Assembly: GCA_013214945.1 (NCBI GenBank)
Contig: JABSRT010000024.1
Location: 1-64,000, forward strand
Reading direction: 5' to 3'
DNA: 64,000 nt
Source of the DNA: Gammaproteobacteria bacterium
GTDB lineage: Bacteria > Pseudomonadota > Gammaproteobacteria > Enterobacterales > Psychrobiaceae
Positions 43,313-62,645 of the stretch are shown here, piece after piece. The first letter of the stretch is position 1, and each line of letters opens with the position of its first letter. The position numbers were made by a program, and so were the translations under genes. Under the pieces are notes generated by a model. That model was not told where the DNA came from, did no database searches, and was given only the letters and a program-made list of their open reading frames with translations.

Positions 43313-43314
43313 TT

Positions 43315-44805: not shown

Positions 44806-44823
44806 TAATTTGGAATTATAGAA

Positions 44824-45957
44824 ATGAGTCAAGCAATTAAAAATCTTAATGTCGTACACGAAACCGAGGTGCAACGCCAATTTTCTCGGGTTAAAATTCC
44901 TGCGACACTAAGTATTAATAAGAAAGAATTTAAAGTACAGGATATGTCGGCTGGAGGTTTTAGCCTTGAGAACAGCAGCAAGGAAATTGAGCCGAACAAA
45001 CTCTACAAAGGACAATTGTCGCTAACTATTGATGGTTTTGATTTTAGTTACAGCGTCGAATTCAATACCTTAACGCAACTACCTAATAACAATATAGGTT
45101 GTACTTTTCAAAATGTTGATAAAAGATTCAGTTCGGCTCTTCGTTATATTATCACCGCTTTCTTAAGCGGAGAACTGCTGGCAACTGGCGATATTATCAA
45201 TACTCTGAGTCGGGAAAATCATACTGACGCAAGAAATAAAAAACAATTGGTGGCCACTAACAAATTAGAAAGAGTGAAGTCTATGGTTGGTAGCCTGATA
45301 TTTTTAGTTATTGGATTGTCGGCACTGACTTTCGTTAGTCTAAAATTATTTGGTATGTATTTCGTACAAAGTTCAAAAACTGCGATGGTTACCGCTGAAT
45401 CACATACCTTGAGCATGCCAAAAGCCGGTAATCTAGAGCCGTTGGTAAGCAAAGGTTTGATATCTGTTAGCAAGGGACAGCTGTTAGCGACTTTTAGCGG
45501 GGTTGAACTTGAAGCTGAAACCAGCAACTTACCACAAGAAACACAAGATATTTTGGCCAAATCACTAAAGCAAACTAAGATCAATGGTTCAATTAGCAGT
45601 CCTTGTGACTGTAAAATCCTCAGCGTCAACGGCATTTATGGTCAATTCCTGCAAAAAGGTGACCCGACTTTCACCCTAATCAGTAATAGCAGCCGTCCAT
45701 TTATTAGTGCAAAATTCAGCTTTAAAGATGCCGAATCTCTGCAAGTAGGTCAATCTGTAGTACTAAAAAATCTTGGTGAAGTGGATGGTGAATTTGTTGA
45801 AGGTAAAATTGATAAATTGACTGTAGAAGGAAAAGATCAAGACGTTACAGTGTTGATCACTACGAGTAAATCGATTGGACTTAATGATATTAATAAACCC
45901 GTTAAGGTCATTGCCAGTTCTAAATTTGCCCAAACCTACCTAAGCTCATGGCTATAA
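44824..45957 (+). CDS. alg44: Alginate co-polymerase with PilZ c-di-GMP receptor domain, Alg44
   Basis: A 377-residue protein (Pseudomonas: 389). The cytoplasmic N-terminus is a PilZ domain with the c-di-GMP-binding residues intact: R18-xxx-R22 (RQFSR) and D40-x-S42-xx-G45 (DMSAGG). One membrane helix (about 158-180) leads to a periplasmic HlyD-like segment (about 185-377). In Pseudomonas c-di-GMP binding to Alg44 is required for polymer synthesis; the same post-translational control is expected here. The algK start lies within or just beyond its end. Confidence 0.94.
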   Translation: MSQAIKNLNVVHETEVQRQFSRVKIPATLSINKKEFKVQDMSAGGFSLENSSKEIEPNKLYKGQLSLTIDGFDFSYSVEFNTLTQLPNNNIGCTFQNVDKRFSSALRYIITAFLSGELLATGDIINTLSRENHTDARNKKQLVATNKLERVKSMVGSLIFLVIGLSALTFVSLKLFGMYFVQSSKTAMVTAESHTLSMPKAGNLEPLVSKGLISVSKGQLLATFSGVELEAETSNLPQETQDILAKSLKQTKINGSISSPCDCKILSVNGIYGQFLQKGDPTFTLISNSSRPFISAKFSFKDAESLQVGQSVVLKNLGEVDGEFVEGKIDKLTVEGKDQDVTVLITTSKSIGLNDINKPVKVIASSKFAQTYLSSWL

Positions 45958-45980
45958 ATGACGCTGCCAGGATAAGACTA

Positions 45981-47324
45981 ATGATCAAAAAAACAGTTAG
46001 CGCCTGCCTGCCCCTCATCTTGCTCGGTGGCTGTTCAGCGATCCAGTATGATGAAGGGATCGCCGACAGGTTATTGAGTGAGGGGAAGGAGCGCGAAGCC
46101 TATACTCATTATCAATACTTGGCTAAATTTGGCCTACCAAAAGCGCAAAGAAAACTAGCGCAGTTATATCAACAACAAGGAAATGATCATCAAGCACTCA
46201 TCTGGTTGAGCGAAGCCGCCGCTAGTGGAGATCTATCTGCACAACTTAAACGCGCCCGGCTACTGGCTTTTAGCCAAGATCCTAACGTTAGAGATGTAAT
46301 ACAGGGTAGCAAGCTTATATTACGACTTATCGACCAAGGTTATGATGCTGCTATCAAGGATTTGGTTAAGCTACTCGCATCTGACCATGACTATTCGATA
46401 CCGGAAAAGTACTTGGTTATTGCACTAGCAAAAGCTCAGCAAGGCCAGCCAGAAGCATGTTATCTATTTGCTGAAATGTACACTAACGGTCAAGCACCTC
46501 AGCTTAGTGGCCAGCAAGCAAAAGGTTACTACCTGTGTGCGACTAAACGCTATGAAAAGGCCTTGTATGGACTGTCCGTGTTATATAACCAGCAGCCTGA
46601 TTTGGGAACCTTTGAACAAGTATATCAGCTGCTCAAAGCAAGCAATAATGCCAGCGCTAAAAATGTCGGATTAAAAATTGCAAAAAAAATAGCTGATGGC
46701 ACCTTGGTTAGCTGGAGCAGCCATAATGCGGATGTATTATTCCATTGGCTTGCTAAAACCGACGCACACGCCTATTTCTACTTGGCGAAATTGTATTTAA
46801 ATAAACCTACTATCGGTAAAGATTTTTCTGATGTTATTGCCGTTATCTTGGAAGGGAAGGTTGCCGGAGACCTTGATTGTTATGCCCTTGAGGCAGAAAT
46901 TTACCTTTATGGTATTCAAACTATTCAAGATCCATGGCGGGCAGAAAAATTGTTACTTGCGATACCGCAATCATCTCCCTATATAAATTTCCTGCTAGGC
47001 GCACTTTATAGCGAAGGATTTTTAGGTGAACCGCATTACCCAAAAGCTCTGGCATATCTTGGTAAGTCTGCACTGAGCGGATTTAAACGGGCTGACAGAC
47101 AATTAAGTAAAATTTACAGCGGCGGCAGGGGTATAAAAGTTGATCTTATTGCAGCTACCAAATATCAGTTATTATCGAAAATAAACGCAGAAAAGTTAGC
47201 ACTGTTTAAACAGAAGTTTCATATTTCTGAACTGGGAATGGCAGAGGCTACTGCCCAAGCGCAGCGAGAGCTAAATAAGCGCCTGGCGTCGCAAATAAAT
47301 AACAACAAGGATCAACAAATATGA
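45981..47324 (+). CDS. algK: Alginate export lipoprotein AlgK
   Basis: A 447-residue outer-membrane lipoprotein with TPR/Sel1-like repeats that scaffolds the periplasmic alginate complex and supports AlgE. The lipobox LLGGC puts the lipidated cysteine at C18. Helical repeats include ADRLLSEGKEREAYTHYQYL, AQRKLAQLYQQQGNDHQALIWL and YPKALAYLGKSALSG. I use the ATG at 45981, with AGGA upstream and a proper signal, rather than the ATG at 45948 inside alg44. It overlaps algE by 4 bp (ATGA). Confidence 0.9.
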   Translation: MIKKTVSACLPLILLGGCSAIQYDEGIADRLLSEGKEREAYTHYQYLAKFGLPKAQRKLAQLYQQQGNDHQALIWLSEAAASGDLSAQLKRARLLAFSQDPNVRDVIQGSKLILRLIDQGYDAAIKDLVKLLASDHDYSIPEKYLVIALAKAQQGQPEACYLFAEMYTNGQAPQLSGQQAKGYYLCATKRYEKALYGLSVLYNQQPDLGTFEQVYQLLKASNNASAKNVGLKIAKKIADGTLVSWSSHNADVLFHWLAKTDAHAYFYLAKLYLNKPTIGKDFSDVIAVILEGKVAGDLDCYALEAEIYLYGIQTIQDPWRAEKLLLAIPQSSPYINFLLGALYSEGFLGEPHYPKALAYLGKSALSGFKRADRQLSKIYSGGRGIKVDLIAATKYQLLSKINAEKLALFKQKFHISELGMAEATAQAQRELNKRLASQINNNKDQQI

Positions 47325-48661
47325 CCTACAAGCAATCTTTGCTTGGCTTGATTTACTTAAGCCTAGCAGGCAGCGCTTGCGCCTCGTCATGGCAACATCG
47401 TTTAGGTGCTAATGTTGGCTATATTCAACAAAGTGACAAGGAGTTAGGCTTTTATAACGATGGTGAGCGTCGCAACGGCTATTTGCAACTTAATGCCCAA
47501 GGCCAATATCAATTATCCGCTGAGCAATCTTTCTTTGTTAAGGCCCGGGGGTTTTACTCAACAGATACCATTAATCTTGAGCCAGAGCAGGGGGGACAAT
47601 CTGCTAAACATTATCTTGAATTGCAGCAGTTGTACTTTAAAGCTGACAACCTGATATATCCTGGCGTCAGCGCAACCTTAGGACGCAAGCGTTTGCGGGA
47701 TGGCAGTGGTTTGTGGTGGGACCGAAATTTCACTTCTGCGTCATTAAATATAGAACGCAGTTTGTTTAGTGGTTTTATTGCTATTGGCGAGCAAGTTAGC
47801 AGCTTTAGAACCGACAATAGTGACTATAAATACCGGAATCACGACTTATTACGTCTATTAGCAACGACTTCATGGCACTGGAAGTATCAGCAATTTATCG
47901 ATGTTAATTTCAGTTACCTCAATGATCATAGCTCTATGGCGAAATTAAGCACCACGGCTGAAGCATATGATCCTAGCGATCCTAAAGTTGCATGGCTAGG
48001 TGTACGCCCACACGGTTCAACTCAATTAAGCGATGATATGATCATCAATTATAATGCCCAGTATGTTTATCAACAGGGTGATATCAGCTATTTAAATGCT
48101 GATGGTGTTGATAAGAAAAAGGTAAAAGGATGGTTAGTTCAAGGAGATATATCAGTTCAGGCTAATTATCTATATCAGCCTGTCGTTGGCCTTCAGTTTG
48201 CACAAACTTCAGACAATAATAGCCAAGATACCGAAGGGCGATTTTTCCAGAGTGGACTGCAAAGTAATAAGGCTAAGCTTGTTTCTAATATGCGTGCATT
48301 TAGCCGATACAACGAAGCCTATCGGCCTGAATTATCCAATATCCGAGTATTAGGCGTTTACCTAGGCATGCAGCTAGCACCAGAAGTTAAGGTGAACTTG
48401 TTATTAAACAAGTTCAACAGGATTAATACTGATTTGGATATAGGCAGCTCAGCAGTCGAGGCATCATTAGTTCCTGGTCGTGACGAGTTAGGTATTGCTG
48501 CTGATTTAGTGGTCGAATTCACCCCAAAACTACCAAATGCTTTATTAAATAGCAGTTCGATACAATTTCGTTTATCCAGCTTTTGGCCCGGCGATGCCTA
48601 CGGCAGTAGTGTTGATAACCAAAGGTATCGGGCGGTGCTAGATTGGAGATTAAACTTCTGA
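47321..48661 (+). CDS. algE: Alginate outer-membrane porin AlgE
   Basis: A 446-residue beta-barrel through which alginate leaves the cell; Pseudomonas AlgE has 490 residues and 18 strands. A signal peptide (about 1-21, ending ACA-S) is followed by alternating amphipathic strands, the conserved YPGVSATLGRKRLRDGSGLWWDRNF region, and a C-terminal phenylalanine (WRLNF) typical for BAM-dependent insertion. The start overlaps the algK stop (ATGA) and the end overlaps algG (TGATG), so translation is coupled on both sides. Confidence 0.92.
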   Translation: MTYKQSLLGLIYLSLAGSACASSWQHRLGANVGYIQQSDKELGFYNDGERRNGYLQLNAQGQYQLSAEQSFFVKARGFYSTDTINLEPEQGGQSAKHYLELQQLYFKADNLIYPGVSATLGRKRLRDGSGLWWDRNFTSASLNIERSLFSGFIAIGEQVSSFRTDNSDYKYRNHDLLRLLATTSWHWKYQQFIDVNFSYLNDHSSMAKLSTTAEAYDPSDPKVAWLGVRPHGSTQLSDDMIINYNAQYVYQQGDISYLNADGVDKKKVKGWLVQGDISVQANYLYQPVVGLQFAQTSDNNSQDTEGRFFQSGLQSNKAKLVSNMRAFSRYNEAYRPELSNIRVLGVYLGMQLAPEVKVNLLLNKFNRINTDLDIGSSAVEASLVPGRDELGIAADLVVEFTPKLPNALLNSSSIQFRLSSFWPGDAYGSSVDNQRYRAVLDWRLNF

Positions 48662-50142
48662 TGAAAAAATTATTATTCATTTTCACCTTGCTAGCATCAC
48701 TTTGCCAGGCGCAACAGATAACCCTGTTGCCACTGCAAGCTAGTGCACCTGAGGTTATGGCACCTCAATTGCCTGATATTTCTAAATATAACCTGCAGTG
48801 GGTAAAAAAACATCTGCCTAAGGACAATATGCCACCACAAATTAACGTGGAAAAAATATTTGATATTACTGAATTTCAACACTTTACTAATGGCGTTAGG
48901 GCCATGGAGTGGGTCAAGCGTCAAACGGGTTTTCCACAGGCTATAGTGGTTAGGGACGGTGTTGCTCGGTTATCTGATATTGCTGAAACTATTGACCCCC
49001 TATACTTTGAATTGAAATCAGATGGTACCTATATTAGCCGCTTACCAATCGTGGTTACTCATGGCGCGACTCTAATCATCAGTAAGGATACTGAGGCCAG
49101 TAAATTATTGTTAAGTCAAACTAAAGGAGCTTTCATACTTAACGCTGGCAGTTTGTTTATTATTGAAAGCCAAATTATTGGTTGGAATGAGATTAAAAAT
49201 GAACCAGCTTACTATGTCTATAAAAAGAACTTTCGTCCCTTTATTACCGGACAGGGCAAGTCAGAGACTTATCTCGCTAGTTCTACCTTTAAACAACTAG
49301 GTTACTCTCAGGCAAAATCCTACGGTATTTCACTAACAGGAGTGCCAGAACAATATAAGGAAGTGGTGCATGGTAATCCAAATGGTTGGTTTATCGACAA
49401 TCTCTTTGAAGATATTTACTACGGTTTTTATTCTCACGAAGCGGAAGACTCTGTGATCCTCGGTAATACCTATTACGACAATATTGTTTATGCTATTGAT
49501 CCTCATGATTACTCTAAGCGATTGATTATCGCTAGAAATACCACATATAAAACCAGAGAGCGGCACGGAATTATTGTGTCTAGAGGGGTCGAGGATAGCT
49601 GGATTTTTAATAATAAATCCTATGAGAACGCACGCCACGGCATCGTATTAGATCGACAGAGCAAAAATAACATCATCGCCTATAACCATTCTTATAATAA
49701 CAAGGGCGATGGTATAACCCTATTTGAGAGCCCTGATGTCCTCATTTATGGCAATGTTGTTAGCAATAATGGAAAGCATGGTGTGCGGGTTCGCAACAGT
49801 CAGAACGTAATATCAGCAAAAAATGTAATAAAAAACAACGGCCAGCTGGCTTTTTATATTTATACCGCTGATCCTAATGGTAAGGAACGCGATTTAGTAC
49901 TAGATCCGTATGTCAAGAAAGTGAGTTTTTCTACTATTGGCGACTATGTGCTAGAGAATAAATCGGGAGTTCTAAGTGGGGAAAAGGTTCACCCGCTTTT
50001 AATTTCAGGAATGGTCATAAAAGCGACTGATGGCGCCAGTACACCACTATTTGGTGGGGGGTATGCTCCTTATAATACCGAAATATTGCAGGGATTGTTA
50101 AACCACAAACAAGCTATTCGTTTTAGTGATAAGGAACAATAA
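48661..50142 (+). CDS. algG: Mannuronan C5-epimerase AlgG
   Basis: A 493-residue periplasmic right-handed beta-helix enzyme that converts mannuronate to guluronate in the growing polymer. It has a signal peptide (ending CQA-Q) and CASH/parallel-helix repeats (NNKSYENARHGIVLDRQSKNN; GNVVSNNGKHGVRVRNSQN). The family active-site motif DPHD is present at 280-283. It is somewhat shorter than Pseudomonas AlgG (543). The ATG at 48661 shares its A with the algE stop. Followed by algI with a 1-bp gap. Confidence 0.93.
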   Translation: MKKLLFIFTLLASLCQAQQITLLPLQASAPEVMAPQLPDISKYNLQWVKKHLPKDNMPPQINVEKIFDITEFQHFTNGVRAMEWVKRQTGFPQAIVVRDGVARLSDIAETIDPLYFELKSDGTYISRLPIVVTHGATLIISKDTEASKLLLSQTKGAFILNAGSLFIIESQIIGWNEIKNEPAYYVYKKNFRPFITGQGKSETYLASSTFKQLGYSQAKSYGISLTGVPEQYKEVVHGNPNGWFIDNLFEDIYYGFYSHEAEDSVILGNTYYDNIVYAIDPHDYSKRLIIARNTTYKTRERHGIIVSRGVEDSWIFNNKSYENARHGIVLDRQSKNNIIAYNHSYNNKGDGITLFESPDVLIYGNVVSNNGKHGVRVRNSQNVISAKNVIKNNGQLAFYIYTADPNGKERDLVLDPYVKKVSFSTIGDYVLENKSGVLSGEKVHPLLISGMVIKATDGASTPLFGGGYAPYNTEILQGLLNHKQAIRFSDKEQ

Positions 50143-50143
50143 G

Positions 50144-51529
50144 GTGGTTTTTTCATCGAATATTTTTATGTTTAGCTTCCTGCCGCTGTTTTTGGCTATT
50201 TATTATATGAGCGCCGACAGGTATAAAAATGGGGTTATTTTAGCGGCAAGTTATGCATTTTATGCTTGGTGGCGAATAGATTTTTTATTGTTGTTTGTTG
50301 TGGTCACAGGCTTTAATTATTTCATTGGTCTTAAAGTGTCACAAGACTGCGCCGCTAAAAAGTGGCTTACTGGTGGCGTGTTGGGCAATTTATTGGTGCT
50401 GGGGTACTTCAAGTACGCCAACTTTGGCGTTGATAGCTTTAATACCCTTCTAACCACGACTGGGGTTGCTCCTTTTAATCTTTTGCATGTTATTTTACCG
50501 ATTGGTATCTCTTTTTATATATTTCAGTCGATCAGTTATATCGTCGATGTTTATCGCAAAGATGCGCCAGTCACTAAAAACATAATCGATTTTGCAGCTT
50601 TTGTTGCTTTGTTTCCTCAGCTTATCGCCGGTCCAGTGTTGCGTTATAAAGATTTGGCGGATCAATTTAGTGAGCGTACTCATAGTTGGAATAAATTTGG
50701 CCAGGGCTGCAGCTGGTTTATGGTTGGCTTTATTAAGAAAGTGTTTATTGCCGATTCCATCGCGCCAATCGTTGATGCAAGTTTTTCCCTTAGTTCACCG
50801 GGATTAATCGACGCCTGGACCGGGGCACTAGCCTATACCGCACAGCTGTATTTTGACTTTTCTGGTTATAGTGATATGGCAATAGGACTGGGGTTAATGA
50901 TCGGCTTTCGTTTTATCAATAATTTTAATCAACCTTACATTAGCCAAAGTATTACTGAGTTCTGGCGTCGTTGGCATATAAGCTTGTCGAGCTGGCTCAG
51001 AGATTACCTATACATTCCTTTAGGGGGTAATCGTAAAGGCACGCTAACAACCTATAGAAATCTGTTCTTAACTATGCTGCTAGGAGGTTTCTGGCACGGT
51101 GCAAACTGGACATTTTTACTCTGGGGAGCTTGGCATGGTGCGTGGCTGGCTATCGAAAAAAAACTAGGTCTGGGACACTATAAATTTTTTAACCCGCTGG
51201 CCTGGCTGATGACCCTGCTGATTATAATTTTAGGCTGGGTGATGTTTCGTGCCGAATCTGTCGGCGCTGCCGTTGGCATCTATAAAGCCATGTTTGGTTT
51301 TAACGGTCTCAGATCTGAAGTCGCGCAGTCAATGAGTTCGATGGAACAGGCTATGCTGATATTGGCCTATACCACTGTGTTGGTTGCGGGTTTTTTGCCC
51401 AAAATAAAACGTCGGTTTCAACTTAAATTACGTAAAACAGCCAGTTATTTGTTATTGCCGCTATTTACGCTTTCAATATTGAAACTATCGGCACAAAGCT
51501 ATTCACCCTTTCTGTACTTTCAATTTTAG
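50144..51529 (+). CDS. algI: Alginate O-acetyltransferase membrane protein AlgI (MBOAT)
   Basis: A 461-residue membrane-bound O-acyltransferase that passes acetyl groups across the inner membrane for alginate acetylation. The GTG start at 50144 gives MVFSSNIFMFSFLPLFLAIYY, the typical AlgI N-terminus, and has AAGGA eight bases upstream. MBOAT histidines are visible in FWRRWHISLSSWLRDY (H278) and GGFWHGANWTFLLWGAWHG (H318, matching the Pseudomonas catalytic His). About ten membrane helices. In Pseudomonas algX and algL precede algI; here they come later. Confidence 0.94.
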   Translation: MVFSSNIFMFSFLPLFLAIYYMSADRYKNGVILAASYAFYAWWRIDFLLLFVVVTGFNYFIGLKVSQDCAAKKWLTGGVLGNLLVLGYFKYANFGVDSFNTLLTTTGVAPFNLLHVILPIGISFYIFQSISYIVDVYRKDAPVTKNIIDFAAFVALFPQLIAGPVLRYKDLADQFSERTHSWNKFGQGCSWFMVGFIKKVFIADSIAPIVDASFSLSSPGLIDAWTGALAYTAQLYFDFSGYSDMAIGLGLMIGFRFINNFNQPYISQSITEFWRRWHISLSSWLRDYLYIPLGGNRKGTLTTYRNLFLTMLLGGFWHGANWTFLLWGAWHGAWLAIEKKLGLGHYKFFNPLAWLMTLLIIILGWVMFRAESVGAAVGIYKAMFGFNGLRSEVAQSMSSMEQAMLILAYTTVLVAGFLPKIKRRFQLKLRKTASYLLLPLFTLSILKLSAQSYSPFLYFQF

Positions 51530-51541
51530 GATTAATTAACC

Positions 51542-52600
51542 ATGTATAGACAAATAAATGCTTTTGGCTTTATTGGGTTGACCTTAACGTTCACTCTATT
51601 GAGTCATCTTGATTGGAATAAAATAACGGTTAATCCGCAACTCAGTTGGACTAATGGTCAGCAGTTTAGTGGGATTGAACAACAATATAATCAGAGTTTT
51701 CTGGCGCGCCAGTTTGCGATAAATTTGTGGGCGGCTGCCAATTTTTTCCTATTTAATCAGGGGGATAGTGGAGTAATTGTTGGTCATAATAATTGGTTGT
51801 TCACCAGCGAAGAATTAAATAATACCCCAAGTAACGCGGATGAAGTGATGCAGCGTTTAGCTACAATTGAGCAGGCACGTCAGCAGATAGAGCAACATGG
51901 TGCTAGGCTGGTTGTGTCTATAGTGCCGTCGAAAGCAAGGGTGTATTCTGAATATTTGCCACAGGCACTACCCGAACATGCCAACGCACGATATAGATTT
52001 TTCTCAGAGTGGCTTGAGAAAAATCAGATAGATCATATCGGATTATTACCGGCTCTGATCCCTCAGAATGATCTCGCCACTTTTGTCAAAAATGATACTC
52101 ATTGGAGTCCGAAAGGTGCTCAGCTTGCAGCACAATTTATCGCACAACAGTTGCAAAGCAACTATAGAGACTTTGAGTGGCACAGTAGTAAATTTAATAC
52201 CTTAGTTGAAGATAGCGCTCCATATCGGGGGGATTTATTAAATTATCTGCCGTTGGAGCCCTATTTTTCGTTTTTGAGCCCTAAAAATCCCAATATAAAG
52301 CCCTTTATTACCCAATCTCTAGACGAAGTTGGTTTATTTGATGATATTCAATATCCAATTACCCTTGTTGGCACGAGTTATAGCGCCAAGCACGAATGGA
52401 ATTTTGTTGGTGCCTTGCAGCAATATACTGGGGTTAATATTCTCGATATGTCACAACAGGGTAAAGGGCCATTCTTGCCAATGACAGAGTACTTACAGTC
52501 GAACGACTTTAAGCAACAGCCTCCTAAATTAATTATCTGGGAAATTCCAGAACGTTATCTTGTTATTAGTCCTAACCTTGCACAGGAAAAATCAGTATGA
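51542..52600 (+). CDS. algJ: Alginate O-acetylation protein AlgJ
   Basis: A 352-residue SGNH-like acetylesterase-fold protein anchored by an N-terminal helix (about 8-22) with its domain in the periplasm; it relays acetyl groups from AlgI. The DxH motif is D185-T-H187 (NDTHWSP) and the serine block is VGTSYS (278-281). It is similar to AlgX, as in Pseudomonas. It begins 12 bp after algI and overlaps algF by 4 bp (ATGA). Confidence 0.9.
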   Translation: MYRQINAFGFIGLTLTFTLLSHLDWNKITVNPQLSWTNGQQFSGIEQQYNQSFLARQFAINLWAAANFFLFNQGDSGVIVGHNNWLFTSEELNNTPSNADEVMQRLATIEQARQQIEQHGARLVVSIVPSKARVYSEYLPQALPEHANARYRFFSEWLEKNQIDHIGLLPALIPQNDLATFVKNDTHWSPKGAQLAAQFIAQQLQSNYRDFEWHSSKFNTLVEDSAPYRGDLLNYLPLEPYFSFLSPKNPNIKPFITQSLDEVGLFDDIQYPITLVGTSYSAKHEWNFVGALQQYTGVNILDMSQQGKGPFLPMTEYLQSNDFKQQPPKLIIWEIPERYLVISPNLAQEKSV

Positions 52601-53235
52601 AACATTTTTTAAAACTACTTGGCGTAATGTTCATCGTTAGCAGTTCCATTGTTAGTGCTAATGAAGCAGCGCTTTACGCCCCTCAGGTTAAGGCCGATGA
52701 GGCACTGGTTAGGGTACTTAATTTAACAGAGCGTGGGGTTGTCTTGTCTTTGCAACCCATTAATAAGCAAGTTCCTAACACCGCCAGTTTCCACTTTTCA
52801 GACTATATTCGTGCTAAAGCGGGTCAACTTACACTGGCGATAAATCAGCAAGAAATAACCCTTAATGCCAAGGCTGGCAAGCGATATACGCTAGTACTTA
52901 AGCCCGATGGTAGCTTTGTGTTAACGACCGATCAAGCTATCACAAAAAAAGGGAAATCTATGTTGGCGTTATATAATTTTTCCACGTCAAAAAAATTAAG
53001 CCTAAAAACGACTAACGGTCGAACCCTGATTATTAAGAGCATTGCTCCGGACCATCTGGGATATCGTGAAATCAATGCTATAGCGCTTAACATGGGGATC
53101 TTTTACGAAAATATTAAATTACGCGAAATCGTTCAACAATTACAAAAAGACACCGTACATAACATCGCGATTATTGATAGCGAAGATGGCATTGCGATAG
53201 CCATTATGCCAAGCAATACCAATACAAGGATTTAA
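52597..53235 (+). CDS. algF: Alginate O-acetylation protein AlgF
   Basis: A 212-residue periplasmic protein (Pseudomonas: 216) needed for alginate acetylation, thought to pass acetyl groups to AlgX. Signal peptide about 1-21 (ending VSA-N), then ALYAPQVKADEALVRVLNLT, typical of AlgF, and two beta-sandwich-like halves. The start overlaps the algJ stop by 4 bp; algX follows after 4 bp. Confidence 0.88.
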   Translation: MKHFLKLLGVMFIVSSSIVSANEAALYAPQVKADEALVRVLNLTERGVVLSLQPINKQVPNTASFHFSDYIRAKAGQLTLAINQQEITLNAKAGKRYTLVLKPDGSFVLTTDQAITKKGKSMLALYNFSTSKKLSLKTTNGRTLIIKSIAPDHLGYREINAIALNMGIFYENIKLREIVQQLQKDTVHNIAIIDSEDGIAIAIMPSNTNTRI

Positions 53236-53239
53236 CCAG

Positions 53240-54583
53240 ATGAGATTAACACTTTTCACTACAGCGCTACTGTTCTTGTCTTTGAGTTGCAACGCTCAGC
53301 AATCGGACTATGTTACGCCAATGTGTTCGCAGTTAGATGATCCGGCTACTTATAGCGATAGTCAGCGGCAAGACTTTGGTCGACTGGTACAGGGACCAGA
53401 TAACTGGCTATTTCGCCTAGATAAAATATCACCTAATCTAGATATAGAACCGCAGGCACTGGCAATGCTGTCGCAAATAAATAAACTGTTCAAGCAGAGA
53501 GGAACCACCCTAGTGATGATCCCTGTACCTCATCGCAGTCTGATTTATCCGCATCAAATCCCTGATTCTATGAATTATGATTTTGAGATCGCGCGTCAGA
53601 AATACTTAGAGCATGTCAACAAGTTAACAAAGTCGGGTATTCATACTGTTGATTTTACAACGATGCTTAATACAAATATCCCCAACCTTTATTATAAACG
53701 CGACTTTCACTGGCGACCTGAAGGATCCAGAATTGCGGCGCAATTAGTTAACGACTACGTTGCTAAATTACCAGTATATGGGCAATACGAGCGAAAGAAA
53801 ATTGAAAGCCGCTACCATGGAGTTTATGGGTTAGACAGTAATAATCAGAGAGTTTTTTCTAAGCTGTGCGGCACCGCTTATCCGAAGGAATATCATAAAC
53901 TTTATCAGGTAGCATCAACGGCGGAAAATAATGAAGATAAGTTATTTGGAGCAGATGAAGGTCAGAACGCGGTATTATTAGGCACCAGTTTTTCAGAAAA
54001 CTCGGCACGAAATTTCGATGGATTCCTGAGTGAGTTCCTTGGCATTAATATTATCAACCATGCCGTAAGCGGAGGTGGACTCGTCGGCTCAATTACCCAG
54101 TATGTCAACTCTGAGGAGTTTGCCAATAATCCTGCTCAATTGGTATTATGGGAGTATCCGGTGCGTGATCTTGCAGCTAATAATTTCGCTCTTGCTTTGC
54201 CAAAGATGAAAAATGCCAGCTGCGATACCAATACCTTTGTTGAGTCGTCAACGACCCTTACCCTTGGTTCAAATATGGTCGCCTATAACGGCGGGGAAAA
54301 CTACCAACAGCTAAAACAGCACCAAGTTTTATATGAGTTTACATTCGACAATCCGAAAATTTCTGAATTTTCTATCAAAACTCACTACGTGGAGCGACGT
54401 CAATATGCTAATAAGATTGGGCACTCCCGTATTAAGGGGCTTGAGGGCCATTTTGTAGTTGATCAAGGGGGCAATCGTTCGATAAAAGATTTACATTTTT
54501 TAGCGCTGGAAATTAATGTAGAGAGCCCTGAGTTAGTCGGTGCCAAGGTTATTACTAAAGTTTGCACCCAGGAGTCTTCTTAA
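53240..54583 (+). CDS. algX: Alginate O-acetyltransferase AlgX
   Basis: A 447-residue periplasmic enzyme that acetylates mannuronate residues. After a signal peptide (ending CNA-Q) comes an SGNH domain with D155 and H157 (RDFHWRPEG) and the serine block LLGTSFS (S250), then a C-terminal carbohydrate-binding module (about 315-447). Length is close to Pseudomonas AlgX (474). The stop shares an A with the start of algL (TAATG). Its place after algF, not between algG and algL, differs from Pseudomonas. Confidence 0.92.
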   Translation: MRLTLFTTALLFLSLSCNAQQSDYVTPMCSQLDDPATYSDSQRQDFGRLVQGPDNWLFRLDKISPNLDIEPQALAMLSQINKLFKQRGTTLVMIPVPHRSLIYPHQIPDSMNYDFEIARQKYLEHVNKLTKSGIHTVDFTTMLNTNIPNLYYKRDFHWRPEGSRIAAQLVNDYVAKLPVYGQYERKKIESRYHGVYGLDSNNQRVFSKLCGTAYPKEYHKLYQVASTAENNEDKLFGADEGQNAVLLGTSFSENSARNFDGFLSEFLGINIINHAVSGGGLVGSITQYVNSEEFANNPAQLVLWEYPVRDLAANNFALALPKMKNASCDTNTFVESSTTLTLGSNMVAYNGGENYQQLKQHQVLYEFTFDNPKISEFSIKTHYVERRQYANKIGHSRIKGLEGHFVVDQGGNRSIKDLHFLALEINVESPELVGAKVITKVCTQESS

Positions 54584-55668
54584 TGTTAAGCAAGGGACTT
54601 TGGATGTTTGCTAGTTGCCTGTTAATAGCAGGCTGTCAACAACTTATACCTAGCTATTCATATCCTGACTCATTGAGCAATAGGGAATATACCTGTGATC
54701 AGTTGCCTATGATTACCCCGTACACTAATGACCTATCATTTAATTCTAAATATGGACCAAAGGATAATAAAAATAATCGTGCTCGCGATCAAGTCCACAA
54801 AGATTGGGCCGCTAAATATAAACAACAAACTAGTGATATACGGTTACTAGAAAAATCTTTAAGCAAGCTTTCAATGAGCTATGCTAGTGGCAAATATTCT
54901 GCGGCTAGTGTTAGTACTTGTATGATCGATATGCTTGTGCCTTGGGCTGAGGCTAACGCATTGCTTGGACGGGCAGACAAACACACAGGAAAGTCAGTAC
55001 GAAAATGGACACTGGCGGCGATTTCATCTAATTATATTGCACTGATGGCGTCATTCGATTCGCAGGAGCCAGGAGTACAAAAAGTGAAGCAATGGATTGA
55101 GAAAATTACTCTCATTACCGTGCTTGAATGGAGTAATCGCTCTGATAAAAAAGTCAATAATCATGACTATTGGGCGGCATGGGCTGTAATGAACAGTGCC
55201 ATTGTGTTGGATAATCATAAATATTATCGCTGGGCACTGGATGTATATCGACGTGCTATGTCGCAACTTAATAGCGATGGATTGTTACCCAATGAATTGA
55301 AACGAAATTCTCTTGCCTTGAACTATCATAACTATGCTTTGATCCCCTTAGTAATGATTGCAGATTTAGCCTATAGTAATGGTGATGATTTCATTTCTAC
55401 GCCCTCGGCCCCGATAAATTTGTTGGTTAACAATGTAACGATAGGGCTGGCTAATCACGCTGATTTTAATAATCTAGCTGATAACCATAACCTTCCTGAG
55501 CAAACAACCAAGCAGCTTTACACGAGTTATTCGCTTGCTTGGATCCCTGTTTACTTAAAGTATCACCAGAACAATCAGCTGATTAAGCTTGAACAGAAAT
55601 ATGCACCATTTAAATCGTCAAGGCTTGGCGGTAATGTTTCATTGCAAAGCTTTAACGCTACACAATAG
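54583..55668 (+). CDS. algL: Alginate lyase AlgL (PL5), predicted lipoprotein
   Basis: A 361-residue mannuronate lyase of polysaccharide lyase family 5 that clears misguided alginate from the periplasm. The catalytic set matches the Pseudomonas residues as I recall them: K56 (SKY), H194 (NNHDYW), R241 (ELKRNS) and Y248 (NYHNYAL), with a constant offset of 8 for the last three. Unlike Pseudomonas AlgL it starts with a lipobox (LLIAGC, C18), so it is probably membrane-tethered. AGGAG lies 8 bp before the ATG, which overlaps the algX stop. It is the last gene of the tightly packed operon. Confidence 0.92.
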   Translation: MLSKGLWMFASCLLIAGCQQLIPSYSYPDSLSNREYTCDQLPMITPYTNDLSFNSKYGPKDNKNNRARDQVHKDWAAKYKQQTSDIRLLEKSLSKLSMSYASGKYSAASVSTCMIDMLVPWAEANALLGRADKHTGKSVRKWTLAAISSNYIALMASFDSQEPGVQKVKQWIEKITLITVLEWSNRSDKKVNNHDYWAAWAVMNSAIVLDNHKYYRWALDVYRRAMSQLNSDGLLPNELKRNSLALNYHNYALIPLVMIADLAYSNGDDFISTPSAPINLLVNNVTIGLANHADFNNLADNHNLPEQTTKQLYTSYSLAWIPVYLKYHQNNQLIKLEQKYAPFKSSRLGGNVSLQSFNATQ

Positions 55669-55703
55669 AGGTTATTTCAATAAACTTTGACTAAAACAAC
55701 AAA

Positions 55704-55826
55704 GTAGTTTAGCTTATTTACCTTGAAGAAAAGGCAAACTAGGTGAAAGCCTAGGACGCAAAGCCGTCGGTCTAACTGATTGATTAATATTCAATTACAT
55801 GATTGCGAGGCCGCCGATAAACTACC
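55704..55826 (+). promoter_or_regulatory. Cyclic di-GMP-I (GEMM-I) riboswitch
   Basis: The aptamer core is unmistakable: GGCAAAC (55733-55739), a perfect 6-bp hairpin capped by GAAA (55739-55754), then GACGCAAAGCC (55755-55765) and the CGGTCT(AA)...AGGCCG helix (55768-55773 with 55808-55813). A closing stem is possible between GTAGTTT (55704-55710) and AAACTAC (55819-55825). It lies in the 233-bp leader between algL and the second lyase gene, on the same strand. Confidence 0.95.
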
Positions 55827-55876
55827 ATGTCAATATGCGAATTAGCTTTTGCTAATAGGGTAGTTGCCTTTCTCGT
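55820..55876 (+). promoter_or_regulatory. Riboswitch expression platform with competing hairpin
   Basis: AACTACC (55820-55826) can pair with GGTAGTT (55859-55865), enclosing ATTAGC-TTTT-GCTAAT (55841-55856) and followed by GCCTTTCTCGTTT. This excludes the aptamer closing stem, so the two folds are alternatives. If the downstream hairpin terminates transcription, ligand binding would switch the gene on; the U run is weak, so the direction is uncertain. Confidence 0.6.
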
Positions 55877-55901
55877 TTATTATTAACACGAGGATAATAA
55901 A

Positions 55902-57035
55902 ATGAAAAACTTCCCTTCTTTTAGCAAAAACTTTGTCATAATATCAATCGTTTTCAATAGTGTAAGCTGGTCGGCTCCAGTTGCTGGTGCAGAAATTATC
56001 TCTGGTTTAACATTTGATTCTCATACTGCGCGTCAGCGCTGGAAACATGAAAATCAGTCCCTTGATAATGTAAGCTTTAGCTGTCCAAGCATGATTGAGC
56101 CAATAATAACATTTGAATCAACGAGCATTTATCAAGACACACCGTGCCGTTGTATTATCGATCCTGAGAAAAAAGTTATTTATGATAATGAGATGGCTAC
56201 ACTGAAAAATTATAGTAAAACATTAGTTAAACTTGCTGATCGTTATAGTAAAACACCGACTGAGAGCCCTGAAATCGCGCAATGTGTCAACCGGCATATC
56301 ACGTACTGGTCAGAGGCGGGGGCAATGACTGGCACTCATTTAAGTAGTGTTGGTTATCATAAAACTGGTGAAATCTTGGGAGTTGTAGCCCAATCTTTTA
56401 ATAAAATTAAGTATGCTGAGGGCATTGAATTACCGTTATTAGGCAGTGTTACTTACGAGTGGATGCGGCAATTAAGCGACTCGGTATTATATTTTTACGG
56501 CGGTATAGCCGGGCCTAATACCCGAAATAACAACCATAGATACTGGGATTCATTTTATTTAGGGAGTGCTTCTGTGATTCTGAATGATTCTGAATTATTC
56601 AATTGGGCGCAGCAGGGATTGACTATAGGTTTAGATCAAATTCAGGCGAATGGCACGCTGCCACTAGAAATGGCGCGTGGCAGTAGAGCCTACCATTATC
56701 ATCTATATGCAGTAGCACCGCTGGTGGGCTTAAGTGAGTTAATGCTACGAAATCAGGAGATGATGAGCCCTGCTTATTCACCTTACCAATACAACAATGG
56801 TGCGTTGGCTAATTTGGTTGAGTTAGTGCTCAATGATACGACAATTTTTTCTGACAAGAGTGCATTTAACTGCAACCGCAGTGCGTGGATGGAAATCTAT
56901 GCCCATAATGTGCAACACAATAATGACGCTTTTTTTACACGACTAAAACAGCAACGCCAGCAATGCAACTCTCGGCTGGCTAGCACGACTTTAGGTGGTG
57001 ATATCAGTCACTATTATGGTTTAAAACTCGATTGA
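55902..57035 (+). CDS. Second PL5 alginate-lyase-like protein under riboswitch control
   Basis: A 377-residue exported protein (signal peptide about 1-29, ending AGA-E) related to AlgL. It keeps the His, Arg and Tyr of the PL5 site: H212 (NNNHRYW), R259 (EMARGSR) and Y266 (YHYHLYAVAPL). The region that should hold the catalytic lysine (SKY in the neighbouring AlgL) reads SIYQDT, so that lysine seems absent. Several extra cysteines may form disulfides. A GAGGA site precedes the ATG. A c-di-GMP riboswitch in the leader predicts regulation apart from the operon. It could be a lyase of altered specificity, an alginate-binding protein, or a degenerate paralogue. Confidence 0.8.
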   Translation: MKNFPSFSKNFVIISIVFNSVSWSAPVAGAEIISGLTFDSHTARQRWKHENQSLDNVSFSCPSMIEPIITFESTSIYQDTPCRCIIDPEKKVIYDNEMATLKNYSKTLVKLADRYSKTPTESPEIAQCVNRHITYWSEAGAMTGTHLSSVGYHKTGEILGVVAQSFNKIKYAEGIELPLLGSVTYEWMRQLSDSVLYFYGGIAGPNTRNNNHRYWDSFYLGSASVILNDSELFNWAQQGLTIGLDQIQANGTLPLEMARGSRAYHYHLYAVAPLVGLSELMLRNQEMMSPAYSPYQYNNGALANLVELVLNDTTIFSDKSAFNCNRSAWMEIYAHNVQHNNDAFFTRLKQQRQQCNSRLASTTLGGDISHYYGLKLD

Positions 57036-57862: not shown

Positions 57863-58984
57863 TTACTTGATGCCTGAGTATCTAAATGCTTTGCCCGTTA
57901 AGGTATTTAGTTCACTATGGCTCATTTCACTATGAACAGCGATGATTCTTCCTAGATAAATAAGTGGCACTTCCGACTCTCTATTGTCGATATAATATTT
58001 GATAGATTCAGCCGTTGCTACACCTAAGTCGTCACTTATTCTCATTGGAGTCGCGTCTAATTCACCCAATTTTATCTTTTCGATTTCTTTAGCTGTGCCG
58101 CCCCAACCAGTCACAAAAATTTCAGCTAATTTATTGGCTTCTCGTAAAGCATCAACAGCGCCTATAGTCATTGCCGTGTTGGCATTGTGAATCATTTTAA
58201 CTTCAGGGAAGTTATCAAGAAATAGCCTGACACCGTCTGCGCCGCCGAGTTTTTGGTATTGCCCAAAATGCTCATACATACTTAACCAGCCACCTTTTTC
58301 TTCCACACAATCGATAAAGCCCTGAGAACGTTGCGTGTCGGTAATGCCAGGTATGCCTCTGTTGACCGCAAAATTGACATCTTCACCAAGGCGCTTAACC
58401 ACGTAATCACATAGCACTTCTGCGCCCATTGAACTGGAGAAATCAAACCATCCATCAGGTTGATGTTTCCAACTAGGGTTAGGGGTATGAAAGGCCCAAA
58501 TAAAGGTTTTGAACACGTCAGATGCAGCAAGCTTTTGGATGTTGTCAGCTTGCAGAGCAAGCTCAGAGGGACCAAAAATAACGAAATCGTATGGTTTTTT
58601 TGCGTTCAAGACCGTTTGTGTGTGCTGTGTCTGCAATGAATGTTCTATTTGCCTTGACGTATATTCATCGACTTCAAAAGGAAGCTTTAGCGCCGATAAT
58701 CGTTTAGTCATCGCCGTATAATTGCGGATCCAAAAATCAGAAATGTCGGCACTTGGATAAATGACTGCAATGCGAACCGGCGCTTTGATGTTTAATTGTT
58801 CTAGCGGCTTAGGCGGCGCATTAACTGTTTGCTGAAAAAGGTCGAGCTTACCCGATTTTTGCAGATGTGTACTAGTTGCATTATTGCTTAATTCGTCAGC
58901 AGCGACATGCATTGGTAGGGCAATTAGCGCTAATATTAACACGCTAAATGATAATTTATAATTGTGATTAGCCATTAGAACCAT
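57863..58984 (-). CDS. LuxP-like periplasmic binding protein
   Basis: A 373-residue exported protein (signal peptide ending VAA-D) of the periplasmic-binding-protein type-I fold. Along its length it resembles Vibrio LuxP, the AI-2 receptor: PVRIAVIYPSADISDFWIRN, GAVDALREANK, TGWGGTAKEIEKIKLGELDATPMRISDD and the closing KAFRYS. By my alignment several AI-2 contacts are kept (S82, W85, R219, T270, W294, R315), but others differ (Q77 to D80, S265 to N269, D267 to A271). It may therefore bind another ligand. No luxQ follows; instead it is divergent (80 bp) from a periplasmic-binding-protein/GGDEF-EAL pair. Confidence 0.85.
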   Translation of the reverse strand: MVLMANHNYKLSFSVLILALIALPMHVAADELSNNATSTHLQKSGKLDLFQQTVNAPPKPLEQLNIKAPVRIAVIYPSADISDFWIRNYTAMTKRLSALKLPFEVDEYTSRQIEHSLQTQHTQTVLNAKKPYDFVIFGPSELALQADNIQKLAASDVFKTFIWAFHTPNPSWKHQPDGWFDFSSSMGAEVLCDYVVKRLGEDVNFAVNRGIPGITDTQRSQGFIDCVEEKGGWLSMYEHFGQYQKLGGADGVRLFLDNFPEVKMIHNANTAMTIGAVDALREANKLAEIFVTGWGGTAKEIEKIKLGELDATPMRISDDLGVATAESIKYYIDNRESEVPLIYLGRIIAVHSEMSHSELNTLTGKAFRYSGIK

Positions 58985-59064: not shown

Positions 59065-60186
59065 ATGAAAATAAAACCTTTAATACGAGCCTTGTCAGTG
59101 CTTTTCTTCAGCATTATTTCATCCTCTTTTGTTCATAGTCATGATGACGATTTCTTTGATTTTGCTCAACAGAAGGTAGAGCAAGCTGTTGAAAAAAATA
59201 CAGTTTGGGACGGCCCTACTCAAGGGCCTAAAATAGTTCACGACCGAAATATTATTTTTATAGCACAAGATCTTCGCAATGGTGGTGTTTACGGCGTTGG
59301 TAAGGGAATGTCTGAAGCGATATCTAACCTTGATTGGCATTTAAGGTTTATTGATGGCCGGGGCTCTGAAGTGCGTCAAGGCGCAGCATTAAGAAAAGCC
59401 ATCGGCTTTAAACCTGATGCTATTGTACTTGGCGGGATTGACGCGCAAAGGCACAAAAAAACGCTAAAACTGGCTCAAAGTTTGGGAATAGTTGTCATTG
59501 GTTGGCATGCGACAGAACTTGCTGGAGGTAGTGTTGAACTTGGGTTGTACATGAACATTACTACCGATCCTTTTGATGTTGCTGAAGTTGCTGCGTTATT
59601 GGCCATTGTTGATTCAAACGGCAAAGCAAAAGTTATAGTATTTAGTGATCCTAATTACAAAATTGCCTCACTAAAGGCTAGGGTGATGGTCGATACGATT
59701 AAACGCTGCCATACATGCACGGTGTTAGAGTTAAAACCACTGCCGTTAGATAAAATTGCAGAAGAAATGCCAAATACATTCACCCATCTGTGGCAAACAT
59801 ATGATCAAGACATTACTCATATATTAACGATTAATGATCTGTATATTGATTACGCTATTCCTTCATTAGAATCTAGGATGGAGCAAGGTAAAAATATTCC
59901 ATATAACATTTCAGCGGGGGACGGTAGCAAGGCTGCGTATAAACGAATCAATCAAGACAAATTTCAATTAGCAACAGTGCCCGAGCCTCTTTATTTGCAA
60001 GGTTGGCAGATAATAGACGAACTTAATCGAGCGTTTAACGAACAACCGCCTAGTGGTTACTCGGCGCCAGTTCACTTGGTGACACCAAACAATGTCCATG
60101 ATCTGATTAATCAGAAAGGTAGCATCATCTATGACCCACAAAATGGTTACCGAAAAGCATATTTAAATATCTGGGAAAGCCAATGA
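59065..60186 (+). CDS. Periplasmic sugar-binding-type (TorT/RbsB-like) sensor protein
   Basis: A 373-residue exported protein (signal peptide about 1-25, ending VHS-H) with the Peripla_BP_4 fold: NIIFIAQDLRNGGVYGVGKGMSEAI, PDAIVLGGIDAQRHKKTL, AKVIVFSDPNYKIASLKARV and ITHILTINDLYIDYA. No ABC permease or ATPase gene is near. It overlaps by 4 bp (ATGA) the gene of a membrane GGDEF-EAL protein, so it is probably that protein's ligand-binding partner, as TorT is for TorS. Ligand unknown. Confidence 0.85.
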   Translation: MKIKPLIRALSVLFFSIISSSFVHSHDDDFFDFAQQKVEQAVEKNTVWDGPTQGPKIVHDRNIIFIAQDLRNGGVYGVGKGMSEAISNLDWHLRFIDGRGSEVRQGAALRKAIGFKPDAIVLGGIDAQRHKKTLKLAQSLGIVVIGWHATELAGGSVELGLYMNITTDPFDVAEVAALLAIVDSNGKAKVIVFSDPNYKIASLKARVMVDTIKRCHTCTVLELKPLPLDKIAEEMPNTFTHLWQTYDQDITHILTINDLYIDYAIPSLESRMEQGKNIPYNISAGDGSKAAYKRINQDKFQLATVPEPLYLQGWQIIDELNRAFNEQPPSGYSAPVHLVTPNNVHDLINQKGSIIYDPQNGYRKAYLNIWESQ

Positions 60187-62645
60187 GATTCAGTCGAGTG
60201 ACCATTATTCAGCGACTAATTTTATCGAATTTACTTTCTGTGGCGATTGTCAGCTCGGCCATATTTATGGTTATCAGATCGTTAGATTTCGTAGAATATA
60301 CCCTCAAAACTCAAGCATCTGAACATGTTGAAGTGTTAACTGCAAACTCGGAAATAAGTCGACGAGTTTTTATTCTGACATCTAGAGTCAAGTTGTTAGA
60401 ACAAACTTTCTTGTTCAGTGAAACGACACTGTCTGAAGAAGCATTTTACATCGATTTACAACTTCAAAAACTCCGTGAATTGTCAACTAATCGTGACTTT
60501 TCGAATAAGATGGATGCTTTTATTGATAATTTTCATCGGTTTTTAGGCAGCTCGTTGGCACTTAATCGTATTCTGAAACAAAGTCAGAAAATCGATGATA
60601 AGCTTGCCACGCAACTCGATACATTAGAATTGAATATTAGTGAAAGGAAACTCCAACATATCCATGATTCTAATTACATGCGATATAATAATGAACTTGA
60701 TTTAATCAGCATGTTAAGAGAAGCGTTTTTGACCGCGGGTAAAATGGTGGGCAATATTCACAGCCGAATAACGCCAGAAACGGAAAAAGTTCTGATCATT
60801 GAAATTGAAAAAGAACTGGACATTTTTTTGTTACATCTTGAAAACGTTGATATTGACACTACTCAAGTTAAAACTCAGAAAAAACGGATGAAACGCACTG
60901 TTCGTCAGTATAACGCTGCCCTAAGACGCATTCGTGCGAATCTAGAGCAACGTTGGTTGGTGATGGCTGCGTTAGTCAATGCTCAAGATGAACTTTTAAT
61001 GATGGTTGAACGGACCGAAGCTCGAGTTCATCAGCAAGCGGTAGAGCTAACAGAACAACTCGAGAAAGAAATAAGTCAATCACGAGTCAATGCAATTAGC
61101 ATTAGTTTATTGGCATTTCTTTTGTCTGTGTTACTCGTTAGCTTAGTGGTTAAGCGCCACATTCGAAAACCGCTTGATGACCTTAAGGAAGGATTTGAAA
61201 GACTCGAATCTACCGGGGTAAACAAGCCAATAAACTTAGGGCGCACAGATGAATGGAGCCATATTGAAAATGCTTACAATCAAATGTCGCTGCGTTTATC
61301 TGAGGCATATTTAGCGCTGAACGACGAAAAGAAAAATTTTGATTTTCTTGCTCACCATGATCCGTTAACAGGATTGGCAAACAGGCTGTTAGCCACGAAG
61401 AGATTAAATAGCAATATTGTTAAAGCACAAGAGCAAAATTTATCGTTTTTACTGATCTATCTAGATATTGATGAATTTAAAACCATCAATGATTCTTTGG
61501 GCCATACAGCTGGCGATAACTTACTCGTCAATGTGTCCAAGATATTGATAGATATTGTCGGTGACATTGGCTTTGTGGCTAGAATGGGCGGGGATGAATT
61601 TATGATCGTTATTTGTGGAGCTGAAAACCTAAATAGCGGAGAAATAATTTCAGAGCGGATAAACAAAGCGCTTCGCAAGCCTTATCATATTCACGATAAG
61701 ACCATCATCGTTTCCGCGAGTATTGGTGTGTGTCAGTTTCCGCAACATGGCAGGGATGATGAAACACTTATCCGAAATGCAGACACGGCGATGTACTACG
61801 CGAAGCGAAATGGCAAAGATCAGTACTGTATTTATGCCGATAGAATGACGCTAGAGATTAAAGATATAATTGAAACCAATGTAGGACTGCATCAAGCGAT
61901 TAAAAACGATGAACTTGTGGTGTTTTTCCAACCCAAAGTTAATCTTCATACTCAAAAGGTGGTCGGGGCTGAAGCGTTAATCCGCTGGCAACATCCAAAG
62001 TTTGGACTGTTACCTCCGGTTGATTTTCTTGAGGTCGCTGAAAAATCTGATCTGATCATCGATATAGACAAATGGGTGTTTAGAAAAGTTGCAATGCTAA
62101 TTACCCAATGGCAACAAGCTGGTATTGATTTAGACGGTATTGTTTTTTCGGTTAACTTTTCAGCTCGAATGTTCTACATGTTAGATCTGGCTGAGCAGCT
62201 TAAAACCATTCTTGATCAAACCGATTGTGAGCCGCATCAGCTACTGCTGGAAATTACAGAAAGAGATATGATGCGTGATTTTGGAACCTGTGTACAAACG
62301 ATAGAAACGCTAAGAGCTCAAGGTTATAAAATAGCAATTGATGATTTTGGAACGGGTTACTCGTCACTGTCGGTGTTAAAAAATCTTTCAGTAGACTGCA
62401 TTAAACTCGACCGTAGCTTTATCGAAGATGTTAACACTTCCAAACTTGATTTTGAGATAGTTAGCGCGGTATTAAAACTGGCACAAATATTAGATTCATC
62501 AGTCATCGCCGAAGGTGTAGAAACCCAGAGCCACGTCGATACATTACTGGAAATAGGTTGCCATCGTGCCCAAGGGTACTTTTTTTCTAGACCTCTGCCT
62601 GTCGATAACTGGATTGAGTACCTAATAGATAATAAGCCGGAATAA
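60183..62645 (+). CDS. Membrane GGDEF-EAL protein with periplasmic sensor region and HAMP
   Basis: An 820-residue bifunctional candidate for making and breaking c-di-GMP. Layout: first membrane helix about 10-32, a helical periplasmic region about 33-302 without a recognised domain, second helix about 304-324, HAMP about 325-378, GGDEF domain about 380-555 and EAL domain about 565-815. The cyclase motif GGDEF (469-473) is intact, with no RxxD inhibitory site before it. The phosphodiesterase residues are intact too: E597-A-L, NFS, EITE, DDFGTGYSS, KLDRSF, EGVET. Its start overlaps the periplasmic binding protein gene, which suggests ligand-controlled switching, as in the NspS-MbaA or TorT-TorS principle. 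Confidence 0.93.
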   Translation: MRFSRVTIIQRLILSNLLSVAIVSSAIFMVIRSLDFVEYTLKTQASEHVEVLTANSEISRRVFILTSRVKLLEQTFLFSETTLSEEAFYIDLQLQKLRELSTNRDFSNKMDAFIDNFHRFLGSSLALNRILKQSQKIDDKLATQLDTLELNISERKLQHIHDSNYMRYNNELDLISMLREAFLTAGKMVGNIHSRITPETEKVLIIEIEKELDIFLLHLENVDIDTTQVKTQKKRMKRTVRQYNAALRRIRANLEQRWLVMAALVNAQDELLMMVERTEARVHQQAVELTEQLEKEISQSRVNAISISLLAFLLSVLLVSLVVKRHIRKPLDDLKEGFERLESTGVNKPINLGRTDEWSHIENAYNQMSLRLSEAYLALNDEKKNFDFLAHHDPLTGLANRLLATKRLNSNIVKAQEQNLSFLLIYLDIDEFKTINDSLGHTAGDNLLVNVSKILIDIVGDIGFVARMGGDEFMIVICGAENLNSGEIISERINKALRKPYHIHDKTIIVSASIGVCQFPQHGRDDETLIRNADTAMYYAKRNGKDQYCIYADRMTLEIKDIIETNVGLHQAIKNDELVVFFQPKVNLHTQKVVGAEALIRWQHPKFGLLPPVDFLEVAEKSDLIIDIDKWVFRKVAMLITQWQQAGIDLDGIVFSVNFSARMFYMLDLAEQLKTILDQTDCEPHQLLLEITERDMMRDFGTCVQTIETLRAQGYKIAIDDFGTGYSSLSVLKNLSVDCIKLDRSFIEDVNTSKLDFEIVSAVLKLAQILDSSVIAEGVETQSHVDTLLEIGCHRAQGYFFSRPLPVDNWIEYLIDNKPE

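Follow-up and report, generated by a model that had tools for sequence, protein, structure and literature searches.

A class I cyclic di-GMP aptamer, probably part of a riboswitch, precedes a second alginate lyase-family gene directly behind a bacterial alginate operon

The disassembly of alginate biofilms, and any regulation of lyases that would serve it, are still debated. In Pseudomonas aeruginosa the alginate lyase AlgL is encoded among the synthesis genes and removes polymer from the periplasm, as described in a passage of PMC8829089. A 64,000-nucleotide stretch of a Gammaproteobacteria bacterium of the Psychrobiaceae (GCA_013214945.1, contig JABSRT010000024.1, positions 1 to 64,000; hereafter the window) contains an alginate operon followed by a second lyase-family gene, and a reading of the sequence alone had placed a cyclic di-GMP (c-di-GMP) riboswitch between the two lyase genes. 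This raises the question whether the messenger that promotes alginate synthesis also controls an enzyme for cutting the polymer and, if so, in which direction.

The only RNA family above its gathering score in the whole window (cmscan) is RF01051, the class I c-di-GMP (GEMM-I) riboswitch aptamer, found on the forward strand at positions 55723-55818 with 70.8 bits against a gathering score of 35, an E-value of 7.4e-12 and a match covering model positions 1-87 of 87. The sequence-only reading had described a textbook GEMM-I aptamer and proposed to score it with Infernal against RF01051; this score bears it out, and the motifs it had named are present in the window sequence. Its interval (55704-55901) encloses the aptamer, the RF01051 match starting 19 bases in, and its account of the surroundings also stands: both flanking genes match PF05426, and the aptamer lies in the leader of the second PL5-type gene (PL5-2, 55902-57035, forward strand), directly behind the alginate operon (39092-55668). 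Position 11 of the aptamer, a ligand contact that we equate with G20, is a G, as expected for c-di-GMP. A G20A change in class I aptamers has been associated with cGAMP, according to a passage of PMC6274999. A chance match as the source of the aptamer is ruled out by the 70.8 bits and, further, because aptamers of 73.2 and 84.4 bits recur directly upstream of PL5-2 genes in two other genomes, one of the same genus (G003) and one of another family (G086). With three class I aptamers in the 4.7 Mb of the window genome, the rough chance of one falling in a given 500-nt leader is about 3e-4 per lineage.

PL5-2 encodes an alginate lyase-family protein of 377 aa with an apparent Sec signal peptide (judged by eye) and a PF05426 match of 93.2 bits (E 2.4e-26), and the gene closing the operon (54583-55668, forward strand) encodes an AlgL-like PL5 lyase with a lipobox-like start and 125 bits (E 5e-36), both above the gathering score of 22.2 bits. 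Against the NCBIfam AlgL equivalog PRK00325 (cut-off 366) both proteins stay below, PL5-2 with 160.7 at best and the operon protein with 231.9, the latter being named AlgL-like by its position and similarity. Its nearest solved structure is P. aeruginosa AlgL (4ozv, E 1.6e-49). Among solved PL5 structures PL5-2 is best matched by 7fhu/7fhz (E 6e-23), which we take to be Smlt1473 and from which it differs by conserved extra cysteines and a different lid loop. The two window proteins are only about 20-22% identical (22% over 338 aligned positions), so that PL5-2 is not a recent duplicate of algL. The catalytic residues N211, H212, R259 and Y266 of PL5-2 are invariant in all five aligned proteins and are equivalent to N201/H202, R249 and Y256 of AlgL, for which catalytic roles are given in a passage of PMC8829089. 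PL5-2 thus resembles P. aeruginosa AlgL in its family and its catalytic residues, but differs from it in standing behind its own leader and probable riboswitch rather than inside the biosynthesis operon. Since its lid loop carries an Ile in place of AlgL Lys66 and a DTPCRC motif, its specificity may also differ; the operon AlgL-like protein retains the SKY of this loop. Extra cysteines of PL5-2 are found at positions 61, 82, 84, 128, 324 and 355, five of the six being invariant in the three-member PL5-2 set. Compared with its G003 ortholog, PL5-2 shows a dN of 0.113 and a dS of 0.799 (0.150 and 0.945 for the operon AlgL-like gene); both genes are under purifying selection, and PL5-2 is intact. 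A lipobox-like LLIAGC opens the operon AlgL-like protein (within 54583-54660; LLITGC in G003), which may thus be membrane-anchored; no lipobox-like start was found in the first 60 residues of the AlgL of G086.

The alginate operon (39092-55668, forward strand) was assigned from family matches and gene order and comprises AlgA, AlgC, AlgD, Alg8, Alg44, AlgK, AlgE, AlgG, AlgI, AlgJ, AlgF, AlgX and AlgL, with the AlgK and AlgG models matching under their NCBI cut-offs. Alg44, together with c-di-GMP, activates the alginate synthase. The Alg44-like protein of the window (44824-45957, forward strand), the presumed c-di-GMP receptor for synthesis, has a PilZ match (E 0.00026) of 21.7 bits, just under the Pfam cut-off of 22.5, and contains RQFSR (RxxxR) and DMSAGG (DxSxxG), which we take as the PilZ motifs of Alg44. 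The earlier proposal that c-di-GMP acts at Alg44 therefore finds both motifs in place and a domain score below its threshold, and an action of c-di-GMP on alginate at two levels, through Alg44 and through RNA, is a reasonable inference. PL5-2 and the operon AlgL-like protein are the only PF05426 proteins of the window genome, PL7 has zero matches there, and G003 (88% complete) likewise has neither PL7 nor further PF05426 proteins; a PL7 match and additional PF05426 matches are present in G086. Within the families looked at (PF05426 and PL7), nothing in the window genome points to growth on alginate from algae. Because this genome has no PL7 and no further PF05426 protein, self-made alginate appears the likely substrate of PL5-2.

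The pairing of aptamer and PL5-2 is conserved across two families, in three genomes that all have alginate-operon genes, the aptamer standing ahead of all three PL5-2 genes found. In G003 the protein is 80% identical to that of the window and the arrangement is the same, with AlgX and an AlgL-like gene ahead of aptamer and PL5-2. Given how closely the window genome and G003 are related, the recurrence counts as two lineages. In G086 the protein is 45% identical and the pair is unlinked from the alginate operon, its neighbours including a transaldolase, a transketolase, an aldose epimerase and a GH26 protein; AlgI, J, F, X and L together with ManC-, PMM- and PMI-like genes are found on another contig, where the stretch covered takes in part of the operon. 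When 58 genomes, comprising that of the window and its relatives, were searched with the window PL5-2, G003 was the sole close match, with weak matches in G028 (29.4 bits) and G041 (21.8 bits). A profile of the three proteins returned only G086 among seven genomes of its family and only the window genome among 369 genomes of the class, and a wider search of genome contigs gave one locus, that of G003. The three members from which the profile was built score 698.8-779.2 bits, as is bound to be the case, and all other frames, in stretches from these three and 17 further genomes that cover part of the surveyed PF05426 matches, score at most 114.1 bits.

Across the order, PF05426 is present in 93 of 394 genomes and RF01051 in 160 of 394, and both occur together in 48 genomes (46 from the order survey plus the window genome and G003). 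PF05426 matches were placed down to E ~3e-8, weaker ones, including all of those in G113 and G206, being left out. Among the matches listed, a PF05426 gene directly behind an aptamer was seen by eye in 3 of the 48 genomes, namely the window genome, G003 and G086, and a general control of alginate lyases by GEMM aptamers was not seen. No PL7 gene stands directly behind an aptamer among the matches listed for these 48 genomes (33 with PL7), the nearest lying at ~6.5 kb. Of at least five genomes with an alginate operon, a number that may miss producers, three have the aptamer-PL5-2 pair; G337 and G133 have an operon and one PF05426 match each without the pair. The only aptamer of G337 precedes a ChiA-like GH18 chitinase, and no RF01051 aptamer was found in G133. 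AlgF proved too narrow as a marker of producers, as the operon of G133 (L061 397-9933), with relatives of Alg8, Alg44, AlgE, AlgG, AlgX and AlgL, has neither AlgF nor AlgI in 19 kb; in the AlgF search, the window genome (G000), G086 and G337 passed the cut-off and G003 had a fragment at a contig end, weak matches in G027 and G253 being set aside. At E 1e-5 no alginate genes were detected in the 19-kb surroundings of the PL5 genes in G066, G025 and G084, and the surroundings covered in G332, G247 and G165 extend over 3.5 kb.

Some further class I aptamers were recorded along the way. In the window genome, one (G000:C24:73782-73866; L047 9782-9866) lies 18 kb downstream of the first, ahead of a gene for a subtilase (Peptidase_S8) that has Ig-like domains, and the strongest of this genome (G000:C22:52784-52877, L001; 83.6 bits) is followed by a lipoprotein-like ORF of 371 aa without a Pfam match. 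Three aptamers lie within ~1 kb at G206:C134:23304-24314, and two within ~550 bases at G113:C1:3759037-3759584. A survey of the genes behind other aptamers, in which a pattern search located the core at 17 of the 32 loci tried, serves as background only.

Upstream of the aptamer, a candidate sigma-70-type promoter (TTGACT-17 nt-TAGCTT, 55687-55715, forward strand), proposed from its sequence, would place the RNA start close to where the aptamer begins. It is identical to G003 in 26 of 29 bases, compared with 7 of 18 just upstream, and scores under the threshold of the promoter scanner in the window; TTGATT-16-TAAAAT is found at the corresponding place in G086. Downstream, on the same strand, predicted folds contain a hairpin at 55820-55865 (arms AACTACC, 55820-55826, and GGTAGTT, 55859-55865), a switching segment GTTGCCTTTCTCGTTTATTATT (55863-55884) and the Shine-Dalgarno (SD) region of PL5-2, ACGAGGA (55888-55894). 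The switching segment is unchanged over its 22 bases in G003, the hairpin is not kept there as the same sequence (28 of 43 bases identical over 55819-55861), and G086 has a different hairpin in its place. Within the switching segment, TTGCCTTT (55864-55871) is the exact complement of the aptamer 5' core segment AAAGGCAA (55730-55737, forward strand), its partner in a proposed ligand-free helix, and TTTCTCGT (55869-55876) is a computed pairing partner for the SD region. The leader of G086 has CCTTTTC at the corresponding place, complementary to GAAAAGG of its own aptamer. These runs of complementarity to the aptamer core measure 8, 8 and 7 in the window, G003 and G086, lengths reached by 32, 29 and 102 of 2000 shuffled platforms, respectively, which is suggestive but not decisive. 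A covariation test is impossible, as there are only three leaders, two of them from close kin.

The mechanism that we propose, which goes beyond the sequence-only reading in giving a direction and an expression platform, would work as follows. Without c-di-GMP, the CCUUU-type segment (TTGCCTTT in the window, CCTTTTC in G086) would pair with the 5' strand of the aptamer; with c-di-GMP bound, it would be freed and help to close a hairpin over the SD site, through pairs of UUUCUCGU with ACGAGGA in the window and of CCUU with AAGG in G086, and this closure would switch translation of the lyase off. With 3 nt of coding sequence, the ligand-free helix has probabilities of 0.74, 0.73 and 0.90 in the window, G003 and G086, and it weakens as the transcripts lengthen. 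When the bound aptamer is imposed, the released segment extends the hairpin over the SD in the folds of all three leaders, whose SD sequences are GAGG, GAGG and AAGG. At 3 nt of coding sequence the predicted SD accessibility then falls from 0.61 to 0.08 in the window (11 of 300 shuffles give as large a drop), from 0.09 to 0.00 in G003 (95 of 300) and from 0.45 to 0.08 in G086 (12 of 300). The corresponding values at 15 nt are 0.64 to 0.38 (8 of 300), 0.12 to 0.00 (48 of 300) and 0.81 to 0.10 (0 of 300).

In longer transcripts the picture changes. No drop is predicted for the window leader at 30, 60 and 100 nt (0.45 to 0.45, 0.44 to 0.48 and 0.43 to 0.46), with 249 of 300 shuffles doing as well at 60 nt, and none for G003 at 60 nt (152 of 300 shuffles), where the SD is nearly closed already without ligand. 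G086 alone keeps the drop at 60 nt (0.62 to 0.09; 0 of 300 shuffles), and at 30 nt (0.21 to 0.08) and 100 nt (0.12 to 0.08) it shows a weak one. The predicted OFF signal is therefore strong in G086, moderate in the window (short transcripts only) and weak in G003, and the folds suggest for the three leaders a logic of mutually exclusive structures that depends on transcript length. With moderate confidence, from a folding protocol that is uncalibrated on a switch of known sign, we suggest that c-di-GMP acts as a translational OFF signal.

The opposite sign deserves the most attention among the alternatives. Under it, c-di-GMP would turn PL5-2 on, and the lyase would trim or remodel the growing matrix or clear misplaced polymer in the manner of Pseudomonas AlgL, which clears periplasmic alginate during synthesis (a passage of PMC8829089). 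Precedent exists, as the Vc1 aptamer of Vibrio cholerae gbpA is described in part of PMC4744006 as a positive class I switch, and passages of PMC6366702 report that the two class I switches of V. cholerae respond in opposite ways without termination, that the sign has to be settled case by case and that it is not transferable between species; the lack of an OFF signal in the window fold from 30 nt of coding sequence onwards points the same way. Against this, across all leaders and lengths tried SD accessibility rose by at most 0.04 when the bound state was imposed, it fell in the short transcripts of all three leaders, and the alginate operon already contains an AlgL. We regard an ON switch as rather unlikely.

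Control by transcription termination, in which the bound state would let a hairpin behind the aptamer and the U-rich CCUUUUCUG or CCUUUCUCGUUUAUU end the transcript, is improbable. In G086 an A+U-rich hairpin does precede CCUUUUCUG, a stretch that would be masked by the ligand-free helix, and class I switches of Clostridioides difficile work by termination according to a passage of PMC6366702; yet a terminator scan of the window and G086 leaders was negative for the coding strand, which leaves a terminator model with little support, the G086 hairpin forms in both states if P1 is not imposed, and G003 has no matching hairpin. That the aptamer binds its ligand and no longer regulates, or is decaying, is very hard to credit, for although in C. 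difficile regulation is seen with just 11 of 16 aptamers of classes I and II (again from part of PMC6366702), the three leaders score high, the contact position is a G and the aptamer has been kept with the gene in two families and differing genomic settings. The reading that we prefer, in which a class I c-di-GMP riboswitch that probably has a promoter of its own turns off the translation of one exported alginate lyase when c-di-GMP is bound, is on balance probable.

Some of its elements have counterparts elsewhere. Vc1 belongs to the same aptamer class and also stands ahead of an exported polysaccharide-acting protein, but it turns a chitin-binding protein on, whereas PL5-2 would be a lyase for a self-made polymer under a predicted OFF switch. 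Within the same order, class I aptamers precede exported polysaccharide-active proteins in G337 (the ChiA-like GH18) and G002 (a GbpA-like LPMO), but there the substrate is external chitin, and PL5-2 co-occurs with alginate synthesis. Aptamer and enzyme are thus of known kinds, and the target and the two-level circuit are the new part, with no example found in the open-access literature. The sequence-only reading had known of no riboswitch control of an alginate lyase, in agreement with our search, which found no such link in the titles and opening abstracts of the open-access papers listed or in the relevant passages of PMC3971182, PMC4465626 and PMC7865049.

Enzymes of c-di-GMP metabolism, differing in type, are recurrent neighbours in the window (GGDEF-EAL), G003 (HD/DUF3391) and G086 (PAS-GGDEF-EAL). 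In the window, beside PL5-2, a Peripla_BP_4 gene shares four bases with a gene for a HAMP-like GGDEF-EAL protein (59065-62645), in which the GGDEF and EAL motifs are visible, and a second, divergent Peripla_BP_4 gene lies at 57863-58984; the overlapping pair looks like an input of a periplasmic ligand into c-di-GMP beside the riboswitch. An HD-domain protein with DUF3391 follows PL5-2 in G003, and a sensor with PAS, GGDEF and EAL domains adjoins the alginate genes of G086. Large Reg_prop sensors flank the alginate genes in the window (33505-37932), as a hybrid histidine kinase/response regulator/AraC protein, and in G086 (L066 4405-8955), as a PAS-GGDEF-EAL protein.

Taken at its word, the proposed OFF switch would hold the PL5-2 lyase back at high c-di-GMP, when alginate synthesis would be raised through Alg44, and would release it as c-di-GMP falls, so that the matrix might be loosened or recycled. 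Such a reciprocal toggle between assembly and dispersal, kept in two families, in which c-di-GMP activates polymerisation and silences a dedicated lyase through RNA, is put forward tentatively, as a possibility somewhat short of even chances. A second lyase with its own predicted c-di-GMP sensor makes the idea of a regulated lyase testable, and it would add to the targets of c-di-GMP riboswitches an enzyme degrading a polymer that its own cell is equipped to make. The cue that sets off slime production probably also governs a tool for cutting alginate; if the toggle is real, these bacteria would encode a switch between assembly and dispersal in which one messenger controls both the synthesis and the cleavage of a single matrix polymer.
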